Source of the DNA: Geothrix sp. 21YS21S-2
GTDB lineage: Bacteria > Acidobacteriota > Holophagae > Holophagales > Holophagaceae
Direction of reading: 5' to 3'
NCBI RefSeq assembly: GCF_030846775.1
Contig: NZ_CP132910.1
Location: forward strand, 5,149,001 to 5,213,000
DNA length: 64,000 bases
The position numbers were made by a program, and so were the translations under genes. Below are positions 20,736 to 27,812 of this stretch, one piece after another; positions within the stretch are counted from its first letter, which is position 1; each line of letters begins with the position of its first letter. The notes beneath the pieces are model-generated. The model saw nothing but the letters and a program-made list of their open reading frames with translations. It ran no database searches and was not told where the DNA came from.

Positions 20736-21785
20736 TCACACCGCCTCCGGCCTCGGGAACATCACCCGCACGGGATGCGCGAACCCCACCCCCTGCGCCC
20801 GCAGCGCCTTCAGCAGCGCGAGGTTGATGGCCTGCTGCGTGTCCATGTAGACGTTGTAGTCCACGTCCAGCACGTAGTACACCACTTCGAAGATGAGCCC
20901 CGAGTCCCCGAATTCCCGGAGGTGCGCCCGGTCGAAGCGGGTGCCGGGCTGGGCCTGGATGATGTCGCGCAGGTGGCCGGGCAGGGCGGAGAGGGCATCG
21001 GCGGCGGTCTGGTAGGTCACGGCGAAGGTGAAGAGCACGCGGCGTTCGCGCATGCGCTTGAAATTGCGGATGCGGCTCTTGAGCAGGTCGGCGTTGGCGA
21101 GGATGATCTGCTCGCCCGACAGGCTCTGAATGCGCGTGGACTTCAGGCCGATGCGGTCCACGGTGCCGAGGACCTCGTCCACGATGATGAAGTCGCCCAG
21201 CGCGAAGGGCTTGTCCAGGGCGATGGAGAGCGACGCGAAGATGTCCCCCAGGATGTTCTGCACCGCCAAGGCCACCGCCACGCCCCCCACGCCCACACCG
21301 GCCACGAGGGTGGAGAGGTTGACGTCGAAGCTGTCCAGCACGAGGAGCAGGACCAGGGACCAGAGCGCGGTGCGCGCCATGAGGCCCAGCACGGGGGCGG
21401 CCATGGCCGTGACTTCCCCGTGGGCTTCCCGGCGCTCCAGGAAGTCCCGCAGGAAGCAGCCCACCACGCGGTTGGCCCAGAGCCCGGCCTGGAGCAGCAT
21501 CGCCAGCAGGGTCACATGAAGGAGGGCCTCCTCCAGGGCACGGGGCAGCTCCAGGAAGCGGGAGCCCGCCCAGAGGGCCAGGGCGAGCAGCAGCGGGAAC
21601 CGGGTGGCGTCCATGGCTTCGGCCAGACATACGCGAGGGCTGCCGGGCGGTTCTTCGCTCCGGCGTCTGCGGGTGGCCAGGGCCTTGAGGCCGTAGAGGA
21701 GCCCCAGGGACGCCGTCGCCGCCAGCAGGGCCTTCACCCAGTGGACGGCCGTGTTTCCGGGCCAGAAGGGCATGGGTGCATCCAT
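20736..21785 (-). CDS. MscS-family mechanosensitive ion channel
   Basis: 349 residues. Several hydrophobic helices at the N terminus are followed by the pore helix region VAGVGVGGVAVALAVQN and the Gln-Asn-x-x-Gly-Asp turn, then DKPFALGDFIIVDEVLGTVDRI, the start of the beta domain, which is diagnostic for MscS. The cytoplasmic part ends with VGFAHPVRVMFPRP. It should open under membrane tension to release osmolytes after osmotic down-shock. Start ATG 21785 has GGAGG upstream; a longer in-frame extension up to 21917 has no site. Confidence 0.92.
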   Translation of the reverse strand: MDAPMPFWPGNTAVHWVKALLAATASLGLLYGLKALATRRRRSEEPPGSPRVCLAEAMDATRFPLLLALALWAGSRFLELPRALEEALLHVTLLAMLLQAGLWANRVVGCFLRDFLERREAHGEVTAMAAPVLGLMARTALWSLVLLLVLDSFDVNLSTLVAGVGVGGVAVALAVQNILGDIFASLSIALDKPFALGDFIIVDEVLGTVDRIGLKSTRIQSLSGEQIILANADLLKSRIRNFKRMRERRVLFTFAVTYQTAADALSALPGHLRDIIQAQPGTRFDRAHLREFGDSGLIFEVVYYVLDVDYNVYMDTQQAINLALLKALRAQGVGFAHPVRVMFPRPEAV

Positions 21786-21948
21786 GGGGGGCCTCCGGAG
21801 GGAGGGTGCCCCGGCGGGGGCGGGAATTCCCGGGGACCAGCCCCGTTCCAGCGCCTCTCCCGGCTTTTCCCGGGGGCCCGGCAGGGTGTCCGGCTGGCGG
21901 CTGCTCAAGGACGGCACGCCGTTCTGGTGGGGCAGGTGCCGGAGGCGC

Positions 21949-23952
21949 TCAGGCCGCGAGGAGGCTCCTCACCAGCTCGGCGAAGGTCCCCAGGCTGAAC
22001 GGCTTCTTCATGAACCCCGCCAGGCCCAGGCCCTCGAAGCGGGCCATGGCCTCGGCCTCGTTGAAGCCGCTGGTGAGGATGACGGGCACGTCGGCCCCCA
22101 GGCGGCGCAGCTCGCGGCAGCTCTCCTCCCCGTCCATGCGGGGCATGGTGAGGTCCATGACCACCAGGCGGATGCGCTCCCGGTGGCCCTTGTAGAGGTC
22201 CAGGGCCTCCCGCCCGTCCCGGGCCTGGAGCACGGCGAGGCCCAGGCGGCCCAGGGCCTTGGCCGCCACGTCGCGCATGGCGTCCTCGTCGTCCACCACC
22301 AGGACGGTGCCCTGGAGCGCGGGGCCCCCGGTGCCGGCCGGCACCAGCCTGGGGCTGGGCTGGATGGGGGCCGGCGGGCCGGGCGCGGCCGGAAAGAGGA
22401 GCTTGAAGCACGTGCCCCTGCCGGGCTCGCTGGTGACCCGGATCCCGCCCCGGTGCCCCCGGACGATGCCGTGGATGGCGGCCAGCCCCAGGCCTCGCCC
22501 GGTGAACTTGGTGGTGAAGAAGGGATCGAAGATCCGCTTGAGGACCTCGGGGGTCATGCCCGAACCCTCGTCCAGCACCTGCAGCGTCACGAAGGGCCCG
22601 GGCCGCAGGGGCTGGCCGTCGTCCCCGGCGGCGGGCACGTCCGGACCCACCTCCTCCACGCGGGTGCGCAGGGTGATGGCGCCGGTGCGTTCGCCCAGGG
22701 CCTCCGAGGCGTTGATCACCAGGTTCATGACCACCTGCTGGATCTGGGAAGGGTCGGCCAGCAGGGACAGCGGCCCGGGATGGAGGTCCTCGCGGATCTG
22801 GGCCTTCTTGGAAATGGAGGCCCGCAGCAGCTGGAGCATCTCCTTCACCAGGGCGTTCAGGTCCACGGTCTCCAGCACCGCCTTGCCGCGCCCGGCATAG
22901 GTCAGCATCTGCCTGAGCAGGTCGGAGCCCTTGGCCATGAGGCCCCTGAGGGTTTCCAGGTGCGTCCGGACGGCGCCCAGGGTCGCCTCGGTGAGGGCCA
23001 GTTCCACGTTGCCCTGCATGGCGCCCAGGAGGTTGTTGAAGTCGTGGGCGATGCCTCCGGCCAGGACGCCCATGGACTCCAGCTTCTGGCTCTGGAGGAG
23101 GGCCCGGTCCGCCTCCTTGCGCTCGGTGATGTCGGTGGCCATGACGCCCACGCCCCAGCACCGCCCCGTGGTGTCCACCAGGGGGAACACGTGGGTGAGG
23201 GCCTGGCGGGCCACGCCGTGGCGGTCGGTCCACGCCTGCTCCGTCTGGAGGTCCCGTCCCTGGAGCAGCACCCTCTGCTCCAGTTCCAGCAGGGGGATGC
23301 AGTCGGGCGATGCGAAGAGCTCCGCGGTGGTGTGCCCGAGGATCTCCCCGGAGGGGCGCCCGACCAGCGCCTCCATGCTCGGATTGATGAGCAGGTACCG
23401 CCCATCCAGGCCCTTGAAGGCGATCCCCGCCGGGGAGTGGCGGATGAAGCCCTGGAGCCGGGCCTCGCTCTCCCGCAGCTCCTGGGTCCGGGCCCTCACC
23501 TTGTCCTCGAGGTTGGCGGCCAGGTCGCGGAGCGCGGCCTGGGATGCCTTCTGTCCGGCGATCATGGCCAGGGCCTGGTCGAGGGTGGGGGCCACCAGGA
23601 GCTTGGGGGTGATCCGCAGCAGGAAGGCCATGGTCATCACGCTGGCGGCGGCCGTGATGAGCTTGATGACGCCCGCCAGGCGGAAGAAGCCGTGCCAGGT
23701 GTTGTACACCTCCATGGCGTGGGTGCAGCCGCAGGCGAAGGTGAACGCGCCGAACATCGCCACCACCCAGTCGAAGGTCACGTCCTTTCGCCGCGCGACC
23801 AGGAGGATGAGGTTGCAGGCGATGACCGCGTAGGTGACGGCGATGACGGCGTCGGCACCGACGTTGGTCCACACCACCCACGGCTCCCAGGACCAGCACT
23901 GGCCGTGGGGCATCAGGTCGGAGGACAACAGGTTCTCCAGGAAATCCCTCAT
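21949..23952 (-). CDS. Hybrid kinase with ethylene-receptor-like copper-site membrane domain
   Basis: 667 residues. The N terminus has three membrane helices in which, gap-free, five of seven residues important for copper/ethylene binding in plant ETR1 recur: Asp34, Tyr41, Ile44, Cys74 and His78 (CGCTH for ETR1 CGATH). ETR1 Pro36 and Ile62 are replaced. A PAS domain (about 165-285), HisKA (GGIAHDFNNLLGAM), HATPase (DEGSGMT, GRGLGLAA) and a receiver (LVVMDLTMPRMDGEE) follow. It lies head-to-head with the hemerythrin kinase at 24061, whose catalytic core is clearly related, so the two probably arose by duplication. Copper or ethylene binding is inference. Confidence 0.88.
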   Translation of the reverse strand: MRDFLENLLSSDLMPHGQCWSWEPWVVWTNVGADAVIAVTYAVIACNLILLVARRKDVTFDWVVAMFGAFTFACGCTHAMEVYNTWHGFFRLAGVIKLITAAASVMTMAFLLRITPKLLVAPTLDQALAMIAGQKASQAALRDLAANLEDKVRARTQELRESEARLQGFIRHSPAGIAFKGLDGRYLLINPSMEALVGRPSGEILGHTTAELFASPDCIPLLELEQRVLLQGRDLQTEQAWTDRHGVARQALTHVFPLVDTTGRCWGVGVMATDITERKEADRALLQSQKLESMGVLAGGIAHDFNNLLGAMQGNVELALTEATLGAVRTHLETLRGLMAKGSDLLRQMLTYAGRGKAVLETVDLNALVKEMLQLLRASISKKAQIREDLHPGPLSLLADPSQIQQVVMNLVINASEALGERTGAITLRTRVEEVGPDVPAAGDDGQPLRPGPFVTLQVLDEGSGMTPEVLKRIFDPFFTTKFTGRGLGLAAIHGIVRGHRGGIRVTSEPGRGTCFKLLFPAAPGPPAPIQPSPRLVPAGTGGPALQGTVLVVDDEDAMRDVAAKALGRLGLAVLQARDGREALDLYKGHRERIRLVVMDLTMPRMDGEESCRELRRLGADVPVILTSGFNEAEAMARFEGLGLAGFMKKPFSLGTFAELVRSLLAA

Positions 23953-24060: not shown

Positions 24061-26124
24061 ATGCCCATCCTCGCTCGTCTCCAGGTCGGCGCTCTGGCCC
24101 TCGGCACCTTGGCCGCCTTGGGCGTTCTCGTTCTGGCCTGGGCCTTCCTCCGCCGCAGGAGCGGGGCCCGGGAACGGGAGCGGGAGGCGCGGGTGGCCGC
24201 GCTCACCGCGGAGTTGCGGGAGAGCCGGGCCCGGCTGGAGGCGGTCTTCCGGCACGCCCCGGCCGCCATGGCGGTCAAGGACGCCGAGGGGCGCATGGTG
24301 GCGATCAACAAGCGGGCTGAGGCCCTCATCGGCGTCTGCCTTGCCGTCACCCCGGCCGAAGCCGCCGGGCAGCTCTTCCCGGCCGGGGAGGTGGCCCAGG
24401 GCGCCGCCCAGGACGAGCGGGTGCTGCGCCTCCAGGAGGTGGTGCAGGCGGAGGAGACCGTCACCCTCCCGGGCGGCCAGCCCGGGGCCTTCCTCATCGA
24501 GAAGTTCCCCATCGTGGACGCGCAGGACCACGGCTGGGGCCTGGGGATCATCGCCACGGACATCACCGGGCGCAGGAACGGCGAGCAGGCCCATTTCCAG
24601 AACCGGAAACAGGAGTCCCTCAACCTCCTGGCCGGAGGCATCGCCCACGACTTCAACAACCTCCTGGGCGCCATGCTGGGCATCGTGGAACTGGCGGCCA
24701 TGGAGCAGGGCCCCCTGGACCATCTCCGGGCCCTGGAGGACCTCATCGCGCGGGCCTCCGGCCTGGTTTCCCAGATCCTGGCCTACGCGGGCAAGGGGAA
24801 GTTCCACCCCCAGGCGCTCGATCTCAACCACCGCGTGGAGGAGGTCCTGGGCATCCTGCGCACGCCGCTCCAGGCCCGGGCCCACCTGCGCTGGATCCCG
24901 CAGCCCGGCCTGCCGCCCTTGCACGGCGACGTGGGCCAGGTGCAGCAGGTGATCATCAACCTCGTCATGAACGCCGCCGAGGCCATGGAACCGCACGGGG
25001 GCGTCATCACCATCCGCACCGCCCAGGAGGAGCTCACCCGCGCCGCCCTCGACCGCCACTTCCCGGGCGAGGCCCTCGACCCGGGCCCCTACGTGGTCCT
25101 GGAGGTGGCCGACAACGGCCAGGGCATGGCGCCCGAACTCAAGGAGCGGATTTTCGAGCCCTTCTTCACCACCAAGTTCGCCGGCCGGGGTCTCGGCCTG
25201 TCGGCGGTCCAGGGGATCCTCCGGAGCCACCAGGGGGGAATCCAGGTGCTTACGGAGACGGGCAGCGGCTCCACGTTCCGGCTGGTGTTCCCGGCCCTGC
25301 CCGGGCGGGCGCCGGAAGTGGCCCGGCCTGTCGCCCGTACGGATGCCTACCGGGGCTCAGGGCTCATCCTGGTGGTGGACGACGAGGACGCCATCCGCAC
25401 GGTCGCCGCGCGCGCCCTCCAGCGCCTGGGCTTCGCGACCCTCGAGGCCCGGGACGGCCTGGAGGCCCTCCTGCTCGCCGAGGCCGACGGGCCGCGGATC
25501 CGCCTCGTCCTCATGGACCTCACCATGCCCCACATGGGGGGCGAGGAGGCCTGCCGGGGCCTGCGGCGGGCCGGGTCCATCACCCCCATCATCCTCACCA
25601 GCGGCTTCAGTCCCGAGGAGGCGCGCCATCGCCTGACCGGCACGGCCCTGGCCGGGTTCCTGCAGAAGCCCTACCGCCTGGAGGCCCTGGTGGCGTCCGT
25701 GCGGGACGCCCTGGAGGGGGACCCCGGCCAGGCCCGGCGCCCGCCCTCCAGGGAACTCGCCAGCTGGGTCGGGACCCTCAAGACCGGGCTGGATTCCCTG
25801 GACGCCCATCACCGGGACCTGGCGCTGGCCTTCGACCAGCTGTCCCCCGGCATGGGCGGCGAGGGCCTGGCCCGGTTCGTGGAGGCCATGGAACGCCACT
25901 ACCGCAGCGAGGAGGAGATCATGACCGCCTCGGACTTCCCGTTCCGCCGGCCCCACGCCGCCGCGCACGCCCGCCTGATGAAGGCCTTCCGGGCCCTGGA
26001 GTCCCGCCTCCACGCGGGGGAGGCGGACCTCACGCCGGCCCTCCTGGACGCCATGGAGGACGCGATCCTCAACCACCTCCAGGCCGAGGATATGGAACTG
26101 GCGATGTTCCTCAGGAGGGATTGA
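24061..26124 (+). CDS. Hybrid kinase PAS-HisKA-HATPase-receiver with C-terminal hemerythrin
   Basis: 687 residues. One membrane helix (about 9-30), PAS (about 55-170), HisKA with His196 in GGIAHDFNN, HATPase (DNGQGMA, GRGLGLSA), receiver (LVLMDLTMPHMGGEE) and then a hemerythrin domain (about 565-687). All seven iron-ligand positions of bacterial hemerythrin appear kept: His in DAHHRDL, His and Glu in RHYRSEEE, two His in PHAAAH, and His and Asp in NHLQAED. Hemerythrins bind O2 at a di-iron centre, so this kinase may sense oxygen. Placing the sensor after the receiver is unusual. The ATG at 24061 has GGGAG upstream. Confidence 0.9.
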   Translation: MPILARLQVGALALGTLAALGVLVLAWAFLRRRSGAREREREARVAALTAELRESRARLEAVFRHAPAAMAVKDAEGRMVAINKRAEALIGVCLAVTPAEAAGQLFPAGEVAQGAAQDERVLRLQEVVQAEETVTLPGGQPGAFLIEKFPIVDAQDHGWGLGIIATDITGRRNGEQAHFQNRKQESLNLLAGGIAHDFNNLLGAMLGIVELAAMEQGPLDHLRALEDLIARASGLVSQILAYAGKGKFHPQALDLNHRVEEVLGILRTPLQARAHLRWIPQPGLPPLHGDVGQVQQVIINLVMNAAEAMEPHGGVITIRTAQEELTRAALDRHFPGEALDPGPYVVLEVADNGQGMAPELKERIFEPFFTTKFAGRGLGLSAVQGILRSHQGGIQVLTETGSGSTFRLVFPALPGRAPEVARPVARTDAYRGSGLILVVDDEDAIRTVAARALQRLGFATLEARDGLEALLLAEADGPRIRLVLMDLTMPHMGGEEACRGLRRAGSITPIILTSGFSPEEARHRLTGTALAGFLQKPYRLEALVASVRDALEGDPGQARRPPSRELASWVGTLKTGLDSLDAHHRDLALAFDQLSPGMGGEGLARFVEAMERHYRSEEEIMTASDFPFRRPHAAAHARLMKAFRALESRLHAGEADLTPALLDAMEDAILNHLQAEDMELAMFLRRD

Positions 26125-27571
26125 TTGAGATCCGGCTCCGCCCGGGAGCCTCCTGCGGCAGGATCTCCGGCTGGACCATGATCACCAGTTCCTTGGTGCC
26201 GTTGTATTTGCTGCGCGATCCGAACAGGGATCCGACCAGCGGGATGCGGGACAGCACCGGGACGCCCTGGGAGGTGCGCAGGTTCTGGTCCACCTTGAGA
26301 CCGCCGACCACCAGCAGCGTCCCGCTCTTCAGGTGCACCGTCGTCTGGATCTCCCGGGTGGAGATGACCGGGTAGGTGGAGCCCAGGATGGTGTCCACGC
26401 CGGCCTGGATGGAATCCTGGGGGTAGATGAAGAAGGTCACCTCGTTGTTCTGGCCGATCTGCACCGCCAATTGGAGCATCACGCCGGTCTTGAGCTCGGC
26501 CACGTCGAAGGTGGCACTGCCCTGGGCGTTGGTTCCGGTCTGTTTGGGGTACAGCCGGCGTTCGCCGATGAGGATGGAGCACTTCTCGCCATCCATCACC
26601 AGCAGGCTGGGGTTGGCCAGGGTCTTCACGAGGCCGCGGGTCTCCAGGGCCTGGAGGCTGAGGTTGACCTGGGCCGGGGTGTGGGTGAAGCTGCCCAGCT
26701 TCAGGCGGCTGTTGCCGGCCCCTTCGGTGAACTGGACGGCGGGAGGCCCGCCAGATTCCCCGGAAAACGTCCAATCGATGCCCAGGTCCCTGCTGGCGGA
26801 AGAGGTGAGCTCGGTGATGCTGACATTGACCCGGACCTGTTGGCGGGGCCGGTCCAGGGTCCGGGCGAAGGCCAGGGCCTGGCGGACGACGGCGGCCGGC
26901 CCGGTGAGGATCAGGTCCAGCCGAAGGGATTCCGCGCCGGCGCGGTAGCTGCCCGGCGCCCCTCCCATGACGGGTCCGCCTCCCCCGTAGCTCGTGCCCA
27001 CGGGCATGCCGGAAGGGATCATTCCGCCCCCGTAGCCCGTGCCGCCGGTGCCGCCCTGGACCGGGCCGAAGCCGCCCGCCGCCGGGTCCGCCCCCGGGGT
27101 CCGCACCTTCGGTCCCGGAATGCATTTCAGGTCCGGAAACGCCTGATTGAGGCTTTCCGCCAAGGTCTCGGGGCCGAGATTCCGGCAGGGGTAGGCGACC
27201 TGGGTCCGTTCCGCCGTCTCTTCGCCGGGAAACCCGGCCTGGAAGTCTTCGATCAGTCCCACCAGGAGGCTGCCGTCCCGGGCCGTTCGCTGCCGCAGGC
27301 CCTGTGCCTCGCAGACCCGGTCCAGCACCTCCTGGAAGCTCGCTCCGGACACGTCCAGGCTGAAGCGCAGGTCCAGCTCGGGCGGGTAGCGCAGCGACAC
27401 CCCCTCCTTGGCGGCCAGTTCGGCCAGGAAGGGCCCGACCGGGGCATTGCCTGCCGAAACATCGTAATGGTTGCCGAGCGGGGCCGACACCGGGGGAGCC
27501 TGGGGGGTCCCGGCCGGGCCCTGGACCAGAAGCAGGAAAAGCAGGGCACTCGGTGGCCAGGGCCTGAACAT
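26111..27571 (-). CDS. Secretin (GspD/PilQ-like outer-membrane channel protein)
   Basis: 486 residues with a signal peptide (first about 22). Residues 30-130 form an N0/STN-like domain (YPPELDLRFSLDVSGASF), then an N1-like domain, a Gly-rich linker (about 165-205) and the secretin channel domain (about 290-475) with LETRGLVKTLANPSLL and the closing VPVLSRIPLVGSLFG motif. It would form the outer-membrane gate of a secretion or pilus machine. No other secretion gene is near, so it is an orphan copy or serves a system elsewhere. The ATG has GGAG upstream. It overlaps the convergent hemerythrin kinase by 14 bases. Two small exported proteins are encoded upstream on the same strand. Confidence 0.88.
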   Translation of the reverse strand: MFRPWPPSALLFLLLVQGPAGTPQAPPVSAPLGNHYDVSAGNAPVGPFLAELAAKEGVSLRYPPELDLRFSLDVSGASFQEVLDRVCEAQGLRQRTARDGSLLVGLIEDFQAGFPGEETAERTQVAYPCRNLGPETLAESLNQAFPDLKCIPGPKVRTPGADPAAGGFGPVQGGTGGTGYGGGMIPSGMPVGTSYGGGGPVMGGAPGSYRAGAESLRLDLILTGPAAVVRQALAFARTLDRPRQQVRVNVSITELTSSASRDLGIDWTFSGESGGPPAVQFTEGAGNSRLKLGSFTHTPAQVNLSLQALETRGLVKTLANPSLLVMDGEKCSILIGERRLYPKQTGTNAQGSATFDVAELKTGVMLQLAVQIGQNNEVTFFIYPQDSIQAGVDTILGSTYPVISTREIQTTVHLKSGTLLVVGGLKVDQNLRTSQGVPVLSRIPLVGSLFGSRSKYNGTKELVIMVQPEILPQEAPGRSRISINPS

Positions 27572-27589
27572 GGGATCGCTCCAAGGGGT

Positions 27590-27603
27590 GTTTATTAATA
27601 AAC
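27590..27603. repeat. 14-bp AT-rich palindrome upstream of the secretin gene
   Basis: A perfect palindrome GTTTATTAATAAAC, 19 bases before the secretin ATG and set in an AT-rich stretch (27590-27614) that stands out from the GC-rich background. It could be part of a promoter or an operator for the secretin gene. Confidence 0.5.
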
Positions 27604-27812
27604 AATAAATAGTAAGCCCCCTGCGGACCCTTCGCAAGGCCCCTCCGCAAGGCTTCTGCCGAGGAGAGCCCGGTGCCCCGAACCAGGCCGGATCTGCCCG
27701 AACGCTTCCATCTCCGGATGTAGGTCGAGGTGCGGGAGGCGCATCGCCACCGGGGGATCCACCCCGGGACCGCCGCCGAGGCCCGGGGCAGGACCGCCAA
27801 GGAGTCCCTGGA

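Follow-up and report, generated by a model that had tools for sequence, protein, structure and literature searches.

The analysed window, a 64,000-nucleotide stretch of the genome of Geothrix sp. 21YS21S-2, carries a hybrid histidine kinase gene whose start codon (ATG 23950-23952) is preceded by the purine-rich motif AGGGGGA. This gene, its domains and its neighbours are as follows:

20736..21917, minus strand: MscS-type channel gene, 31 bases downstream of the kinase gene if GTG 21917 is its start
21949..23952, minus strand: hybrid histidine kinase gene, 667 aa, with ETR1_N, PAS, HisKA, HATPase_c and receiver domains (open frame and Pfam)
21973..22305, minus strand: receiver domain, residues 550-660, phospho-acceptor Asp600 (Pfam)
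22384..22755, minus strand: HATPase_c domain, residues 400-523, with N, G1 and G2 boxes (Pfam)
22894..23064, minus strand: HisKA dimerisation domain, residues 297-353, with His303 in GIAHDFNN (Pfam)
23113..23442, minus strand: PAS_4 domain, residues 171-280 (Pfam)
23596..23877, minus strand: ETR1_N domain, residues 26-119 (Pfam PF25487 and hydropathy)
24061..26124, plus strand: divergent paralogous kinase gene with PAS, HisKA, HATPase_c, receiver and C-terminal hemerythrin domains (Pfam)
26111-27637, minus strand: secretin-family gene adjoining the hemerythrin kinase gene (PF00263, 126.8 bits)

The N-terminal domain of the window kinase belongs to the PF25487 ETR1_N family (92.8 bits, E=1.7e-26, for a curated cut-off of 27 bits) and is the only copy found by a whole-genome profile scan of this strain. 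Hydropathy indicates three hydrophobic helices ahead of the signalling module, at about residues 35-53, 58-76 and 94-112; a single-sequence fold places them at 32-53, 60-87 and 92-118, although its mean pLDDT of 53 makes it unreliable. All kinase motifs are intact (His303, N410, D461 of the G1 box, the GRGLGL box and Asp600). HATPase_c and Response_reg both exceed their Pfam cut-offs; the HisKA score lies under its curated cut-off, yet the H-box is intact. The single open frame and the full motif set rule out an interrupted or truncated gene. The earlier note on this DNA had described an ethylene-receptor-like domain on a bacterial hybrid kinase: the homology and the completeness of the kinase stood, whereas ethylene sensing found no support in the form proposed, two of the seven required sites being changed. 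The profile comparison that it had proposed, with which the domain tree agrees, excludes an unrelated family. The window protein has no sequence relative among solved structures (best E=1.1) and no match among viral contigs; in a contig search with the full-length protein, the best matches span chiefly the kinase half. Judged on its sequence, the protein is a membrane-bound hybrid kinase whose sensor genuinely belongs to the ETR1-type family of ethylene-binding domains.

Alignment of the domain with Arabidopsis ETR1 gives the following sites, all on the minus strand:

23851..23853: Asp34, equivalent to ETR1 Asp25
23830..23832: Tyr41, equivalent to ETR1 Tyr32
23821..23823: Ile44, equivalent to ETR1 Ile35
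23818..23820: Ala45 at the ETR1 Pro36 site (changed; Ala in 12/121 relatives)
23740..23742: Thr71 at the ETR1 Ile62 site (changed; Thr in 0/121 relatives)
23731..23733: Cys74, equivalent to ETR1 Cys65, predicted Cu(I) ligand
23725..23727: Cys76, extra cysteine at the ETR1 Ala67 site (CGCTH)
23719..23721: His78, equivalent to ETR1 His69, predicted Cu(I) ligand
23662..23664: Lys97, equivalent to ETR1 Lys91, the proposed partner of Asp25

Furthermore, Ser104 aligns with ETR1 Ser98. The site numbering rests on the letters that we take to be those of the ETR1 reference. AzoEtr1 gives the same site map, since the residues D35, C75, H79 and K98, named for its site in PMC11819568, are present at our locus L116 of Azospirillum brasilense Sp7, whose length (525 aa) also agrees with that source. 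The residue numbers and the spacing that the earlier note had given by eye for Asp34, Tyr41, Ile44, Cys74 and His78 were thus recovered, as were its two differing sites. The window domain has the Asp25, Tyr32 and Ile35 of an ethylene receptor and, as Cys74/His78, the Cys65/His69 pair of the ETR1_N family; it has lost Pro36 (Ala45) and Ile62 (Thr71). According to PMC11819568, seven ETR1 sites were found by alanine scanning to be needed for ethylene, and the change from Pro36 to Ala is exactly the substitution used in such scanning. PMC6586836 describes I35, P36 and I62 as immediate neighbours of the modelled ethylene sites and locates C65 and H69 on the copper.

The frequency of these changes was established on a first set of 121 aligned ETR1_N domains besides those of the window and ETR1. 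They come from PF25487 searches that matched 18 of 396 sampled genomes of the window's phylum, 6 of 77 of its family (the sample's order and family of the window being the same 77 genomes), 45 of 146 cyanobacteria, 28 of 398 genomes of Microvirga's phylum, 20 of 199 of Gemmata's phylum and two of 11 further genomes; among 72,556 plasmid records, 18 matched and nine of these were used. This set holds at most 30 loci per search; the copy in the window itself, matches of <86 residues and duplicates with an identical core are left out. Matches reach nine per genome in cyanobacteria (for example G573 and G543), several of them weak or partial. On plasmid pMB03 of Acaryochloris sp. 'Moss Beach', an IS1-family transposase gene lies between the ETR1_N frame and an ATP-binding-protein gene (L179:3983-7422), which suggests that the receptor gene was interrupted by it. 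A second set of 134 domains with flanks, overlapping the first, adds a class of the window's phylum (72 of 399 genomes matching).

In the first set, the ETR1 residue is kept at D25 in 101 domains, at Y32 in 109, at I35 in 107, at P36 in 88, at I62 in 107, at C65 in 115 and at H69 in 111. These last two counts, taken singly, and the presence of both residues in the closest relative bear out the conservation of Cys and His that had been proposed as a check. Neither Thr at site 62 nor Cys at site 67 occurs in any of the 121 domains. In the second set, Thr62 occurs only in two domains (L360 and L361), both devoid of C65 and H69; the 110 domains that keep both ligands have Ile (n = 106) or Val (n = 4) at this site, and none of the 134 has Cys at site 67.

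These distributions bear on the possibility that the protein is a working ethylene receptor, which would tolerate the changes at Pro36 and Ile62 and sense environmental ethylene as in Azospirillum and Synechocystis. The equivalents of Cys, His, Asp, Tyr, Ile, Lys and Ser are all kept, and proven bacterial examples exist in A. brasilense and Synechocystis (PMC11819568). Since Ala recurs at site 36, it may be compatible with ethylene binding in bacterial domains. However, both changed sites are among the seven required in ETR1. Moreover, all seven are kept in 73 of the 121 domains (31/36 in cyanobacteria, 21/35 in Microvirga's phylum and related plasmids, 17/23 in Gemmata's phylum, 4/21 in the window's phylum outside its family and 0/1 in Deinococcus) but in none of the five other domains of the window's family. 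Ethylene reception appears possible but doubtful.

A close relative was found in only one other of the 77 family genomes (G054). The tree, built on 123 rows and few columns with many unresolved forks, places its domain as sister to the window domain with support 100/98. The G054 kinase (L082/L184) shares the domain, PAS, histidine kinase and receiver arrangement of the window kinase, with 55% identity in the domain and common CWSWEPWVVW and THAME stretches. Both domains keep the Cys, His, Asp and Lys equivalents; they differ by Gly at site 36, Ile at site 62 and Leu at site 67 in G054, whose kinase also has two PAS_4 stretches and other neighbouring genes. As a single close relative was found, the altered pocket might reflect drift, the sensor part decaying or being only structural and the kinase being driven by its PAS domain. 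The changes at sites 62 and 67, which in the first set are unique to the window domain, would fit such a decay. However, the core residues, the helices and every kinase motif are intact, and the stretches shared with G054 persist at 55% identity, so that we regard this explanation as improbable.

The MscS-type channel gene may be co-transcribed with the window kinase gene. On the other side, the hemerythrin kinase shares 47% identity over 518 aa with the ETR1_N kinase; its hemerythrin domain passes TIGR02481 (56.3 bits for a cut-off of 51.75), and this protein is likely an oxygen or iron sensor. Its relatives at E<=1e-150 are found in three of the 77 family genomes (the window's, G068 and G070). 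A conserved pairing of the two kinases was considered and rejected, as G068 has no ETR1_N match and G070 carries the two genes on different contigs. Upstream of the G054 kinase lies a TolC/RND adaptor/RND permease set (L184:1810-7367, plus strand), whose RND genes match generic RND subfamilies compatible with metals or drugs. Since the gene neighbours differ between the window and G054, they do not name the ligand. No P1B ATPase gene is present within the 64-kb window, and all TIGR01511 matches of this genome lie elsewhere.

The comparison of the domains also revealed a linked change at sites 25 and 91. Across the 110 domains in which both Cys and His are kept, Lys91 accompanies Asp25 in 85 of 92 cases and Asn25 in none of 15; site 91 of these 15 domains is Asn (n = 11) or Asp (n = 4). 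As these rows are related by descent, a p-value would be misleading. In the tree, the N25/N91 rows branch separately from the N25/D91 rows of the fusions described below. Two cyanobacterial domains (L130 and L148, first set only) depart from a strict pairing, with Asn25 and Lys91. The window domain retains the Asp and Lys pair. A site pattern N-Y-I-C-I-C-(S/T)-H-N recurs in the window's phylum. The co-change agrees with the D25-K91 bond modelled for ETR1 (PMC11819568 and PMC13012798); the latter source reports that ETR1 D25N keeps function with an affinity about 100-fold lower.

Our analysis further revealed that four of the 77 family genomes encode an ETR1_N domain as part of an in-frame fusion, with a copper-type P1B ATPase before it and a histidine kinase after it. 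They are four of the five matching family genomes besides that of the window: G031, G045 and G037, which share one genus, and G070, which falls in the window's genus in the taxonomic grouping used. The fusions are located as follows:

L185:6886-11520, minus strand: ATPase/ETR1_N/kinase fusion
L186:6403-12243, plus strand: ATPase/ETR1_N/kinase fusion
L187:5024-9409, plus strand: ATPase/ETR1_N/kinase fusion
L188:4107-9776, plus strand: ATPase/ETR1_N/kinase fusion

Each is a single open frame of 1462-1947 residues encoding, in order, HMA, E1-E2 ATPase, hydrolase, ETR1_N, PAS (3/4), kinase and receiver (3/4, two with Hpt). The three that were scanned with the copper P1B model TIGR01511 (L185, L187 and L188) reach 559, 559 and 577 bits for a cut-off of 397, and the CxxC, CPC, DKTGT and GDGxND motifs are present in all four. 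In all four, one added hydrophobic helix follows those that end the ATPase part and precedes the ETR1_N domain; this helix would give the fused domain its usual orientation. Their linker is alignable across the four fusions; of the codon positions, the second is the least changed in six of six pairs and the third the most changed in five of six, which matches the expectation for a translated sequence. The four genomes are drafts listed at 4-8% contamination. For one fusion, that of G045, contamination was rejected as its source: the adjacent helicase gene is single-copy in this genome and, where matched whole-length, shares 79-90% identity with the corresponding genes of the other genomes in the genus. 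In addition, G401, from another family of the same phylum, carries a copper-type ATPase gene (603 bits) directly upstream of an ETR1_N kinase gene (L198:3645-7544, plus strand) whose domain has Asn25, Cys36 and Asn91. The fused domains keep Cys and His, with Asn25/Asp91 replacing Asp25/Lys91, and form a separate branch nested among proteobacterial domains, which is not the sister group of the window domain. Among the openly licensed papers searched, none was found on a fusion of an ATPase with an ethylene receptor.

Taken as a whole, these data lead us to prefer, with a probability of about 0.5, a hybrid kinase with a predicted Cu(I)-site sensor of reduced or altered ligand preference, for which copper status or another copper-binding molecule would be the signal. 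The assignment as a copper-site sensor is well supported by homology: besides the family match, five of the seven essential residues and the K91 and S98 equivalents are kept, and the three-helix hydropathy profile is accompanied by intact H, N, G1 and G2 boxes and receiver Asp. The residues at sites 62 and 67, found in none of the 121 domains, also speak for this reading, as do G054, where a kinase of identical layout has both Cys and His together with Gly at site 36, and the related domains fused to a copper-type P1B ATPase in four genomes of the family. On the other hand, Thr in place of Ile is a modest change. By homology, the protein would form a dimer in which Cys74 and His78 of each chain hold one Cu(I), positioned by Asp34 and Lys97. 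A small ligand at the copper, or copper loading itself, would move the third helix, and the signal would travel via the PAS domain first to His303, next to Asp600 of the attached receiver and finally to a partner. Because of the changes Pro36 to Ala and Ile62 to Thr and of the cysteine between the copper ligands, the affinity for ethylene is expected to be far below that of AzoEtr1 and SynEtr1. Another small ligand, or copper itself, would be at least as likely as ethylene to be the signal.

A narrower form of this preferred reading, whose probability overlaps with it, is that of a copper (or silver) sensor in which Cu(I) at Cys74/His78, possibly with Cys76, would itself be the signal. The retention of the ligands while ethylene-pocket sites change and the extra cysteine point to it, as does the distribution of the ATPases: fused to four domains of the family and near one from another family among the 134, within flanks of at most about 6.5 kb per side, many ended by contig ends, they accompany five of 19 Asn25 domains, none of 110 Asp25 domains and none of the five others. 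However, the window domain has the Asp25/Lys91 equivalents and no adjoining ATPase, and belongs to another branch of the tree, so that we propose this form only tentatively. Since the window domain has a closer relative than the fused group and the window is devoid of any P1B ATPase, the link with copper is one of family and not of neighbourhood. A broader view, which we consider unlikely, holds that the ETR1-type domains found here include a branch that reads copper instead of receiving ethylene, some of its members being one-chain pump-sensors. The fused ATPase would load or report Cu(I) to the ETR1-type site, as a one-chain counterpart of plant RAN1/ETR1. The window kinase would apply the same copper chemistry as a separate sensor, which Pro36Ala, Ile62Thr and the added cysteine would have shifted away from ethylene.

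Ethylene-binding domains occur well beyond plants and cyanobacteria. Bacterial kinases carrying them have already been published (PMC11819568, PMC6682694 and PMC7700396), to which the window protein adds a pocket variant. Going by listings and opening lines, we found no report of ETR1-type receptors in the window's phylum. AzoEtr1 resembles the window kinase by its N-terminal three-helix ETR1-type domain, PAS domain and histidine kinase (PMC11819568) and has the D, Y, I, C, H, K and S equivalents in common with it; it differs in keeping all seven sites and in having a separate response regulator, whereas A45, T71, C76 and a fused receiver characterise the window protein. Arabidopsis ETR1 belongs to the same family, with the same spacing of D25, Y32, I35, C65, H69, K91 and S98, but the P36 and I62 sites are changed in the window domain, which is followed by a PAS domain instead of the GAF domain of ETR1 (PMC6586836). 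SynEtr1 (Synechocystis slr1212), compared by its literature description alone, is likewise a bacterial ethylene-binding-domain kinase (PMC11819568). The four ATPase fusions share with the window protein an ETR1_N domain with Cys and His and a kinase output; they differ by the position of this domain behind HMA and a copper-type ATPase, by Asn25/Asp91 and by their separate branch.

With its copper ligands in place and two residues of the ethylene pocket gone, this naturally occurring receptor-like protein offers a ready test of the sites that hold copper versus those that hold ethylene. A direct hand-over of copper from RAN1 to ETR1 has been argued (PMC12586476); the in-frame copper ATPase fusions bear on how ETR1 obtains its copper and offer a one-chain version that is testable in a bacterium. 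Overall, sensors of this kind are joined to a copper pump in some close relatives, a hint that they may read copper or another copper-bound molecule.
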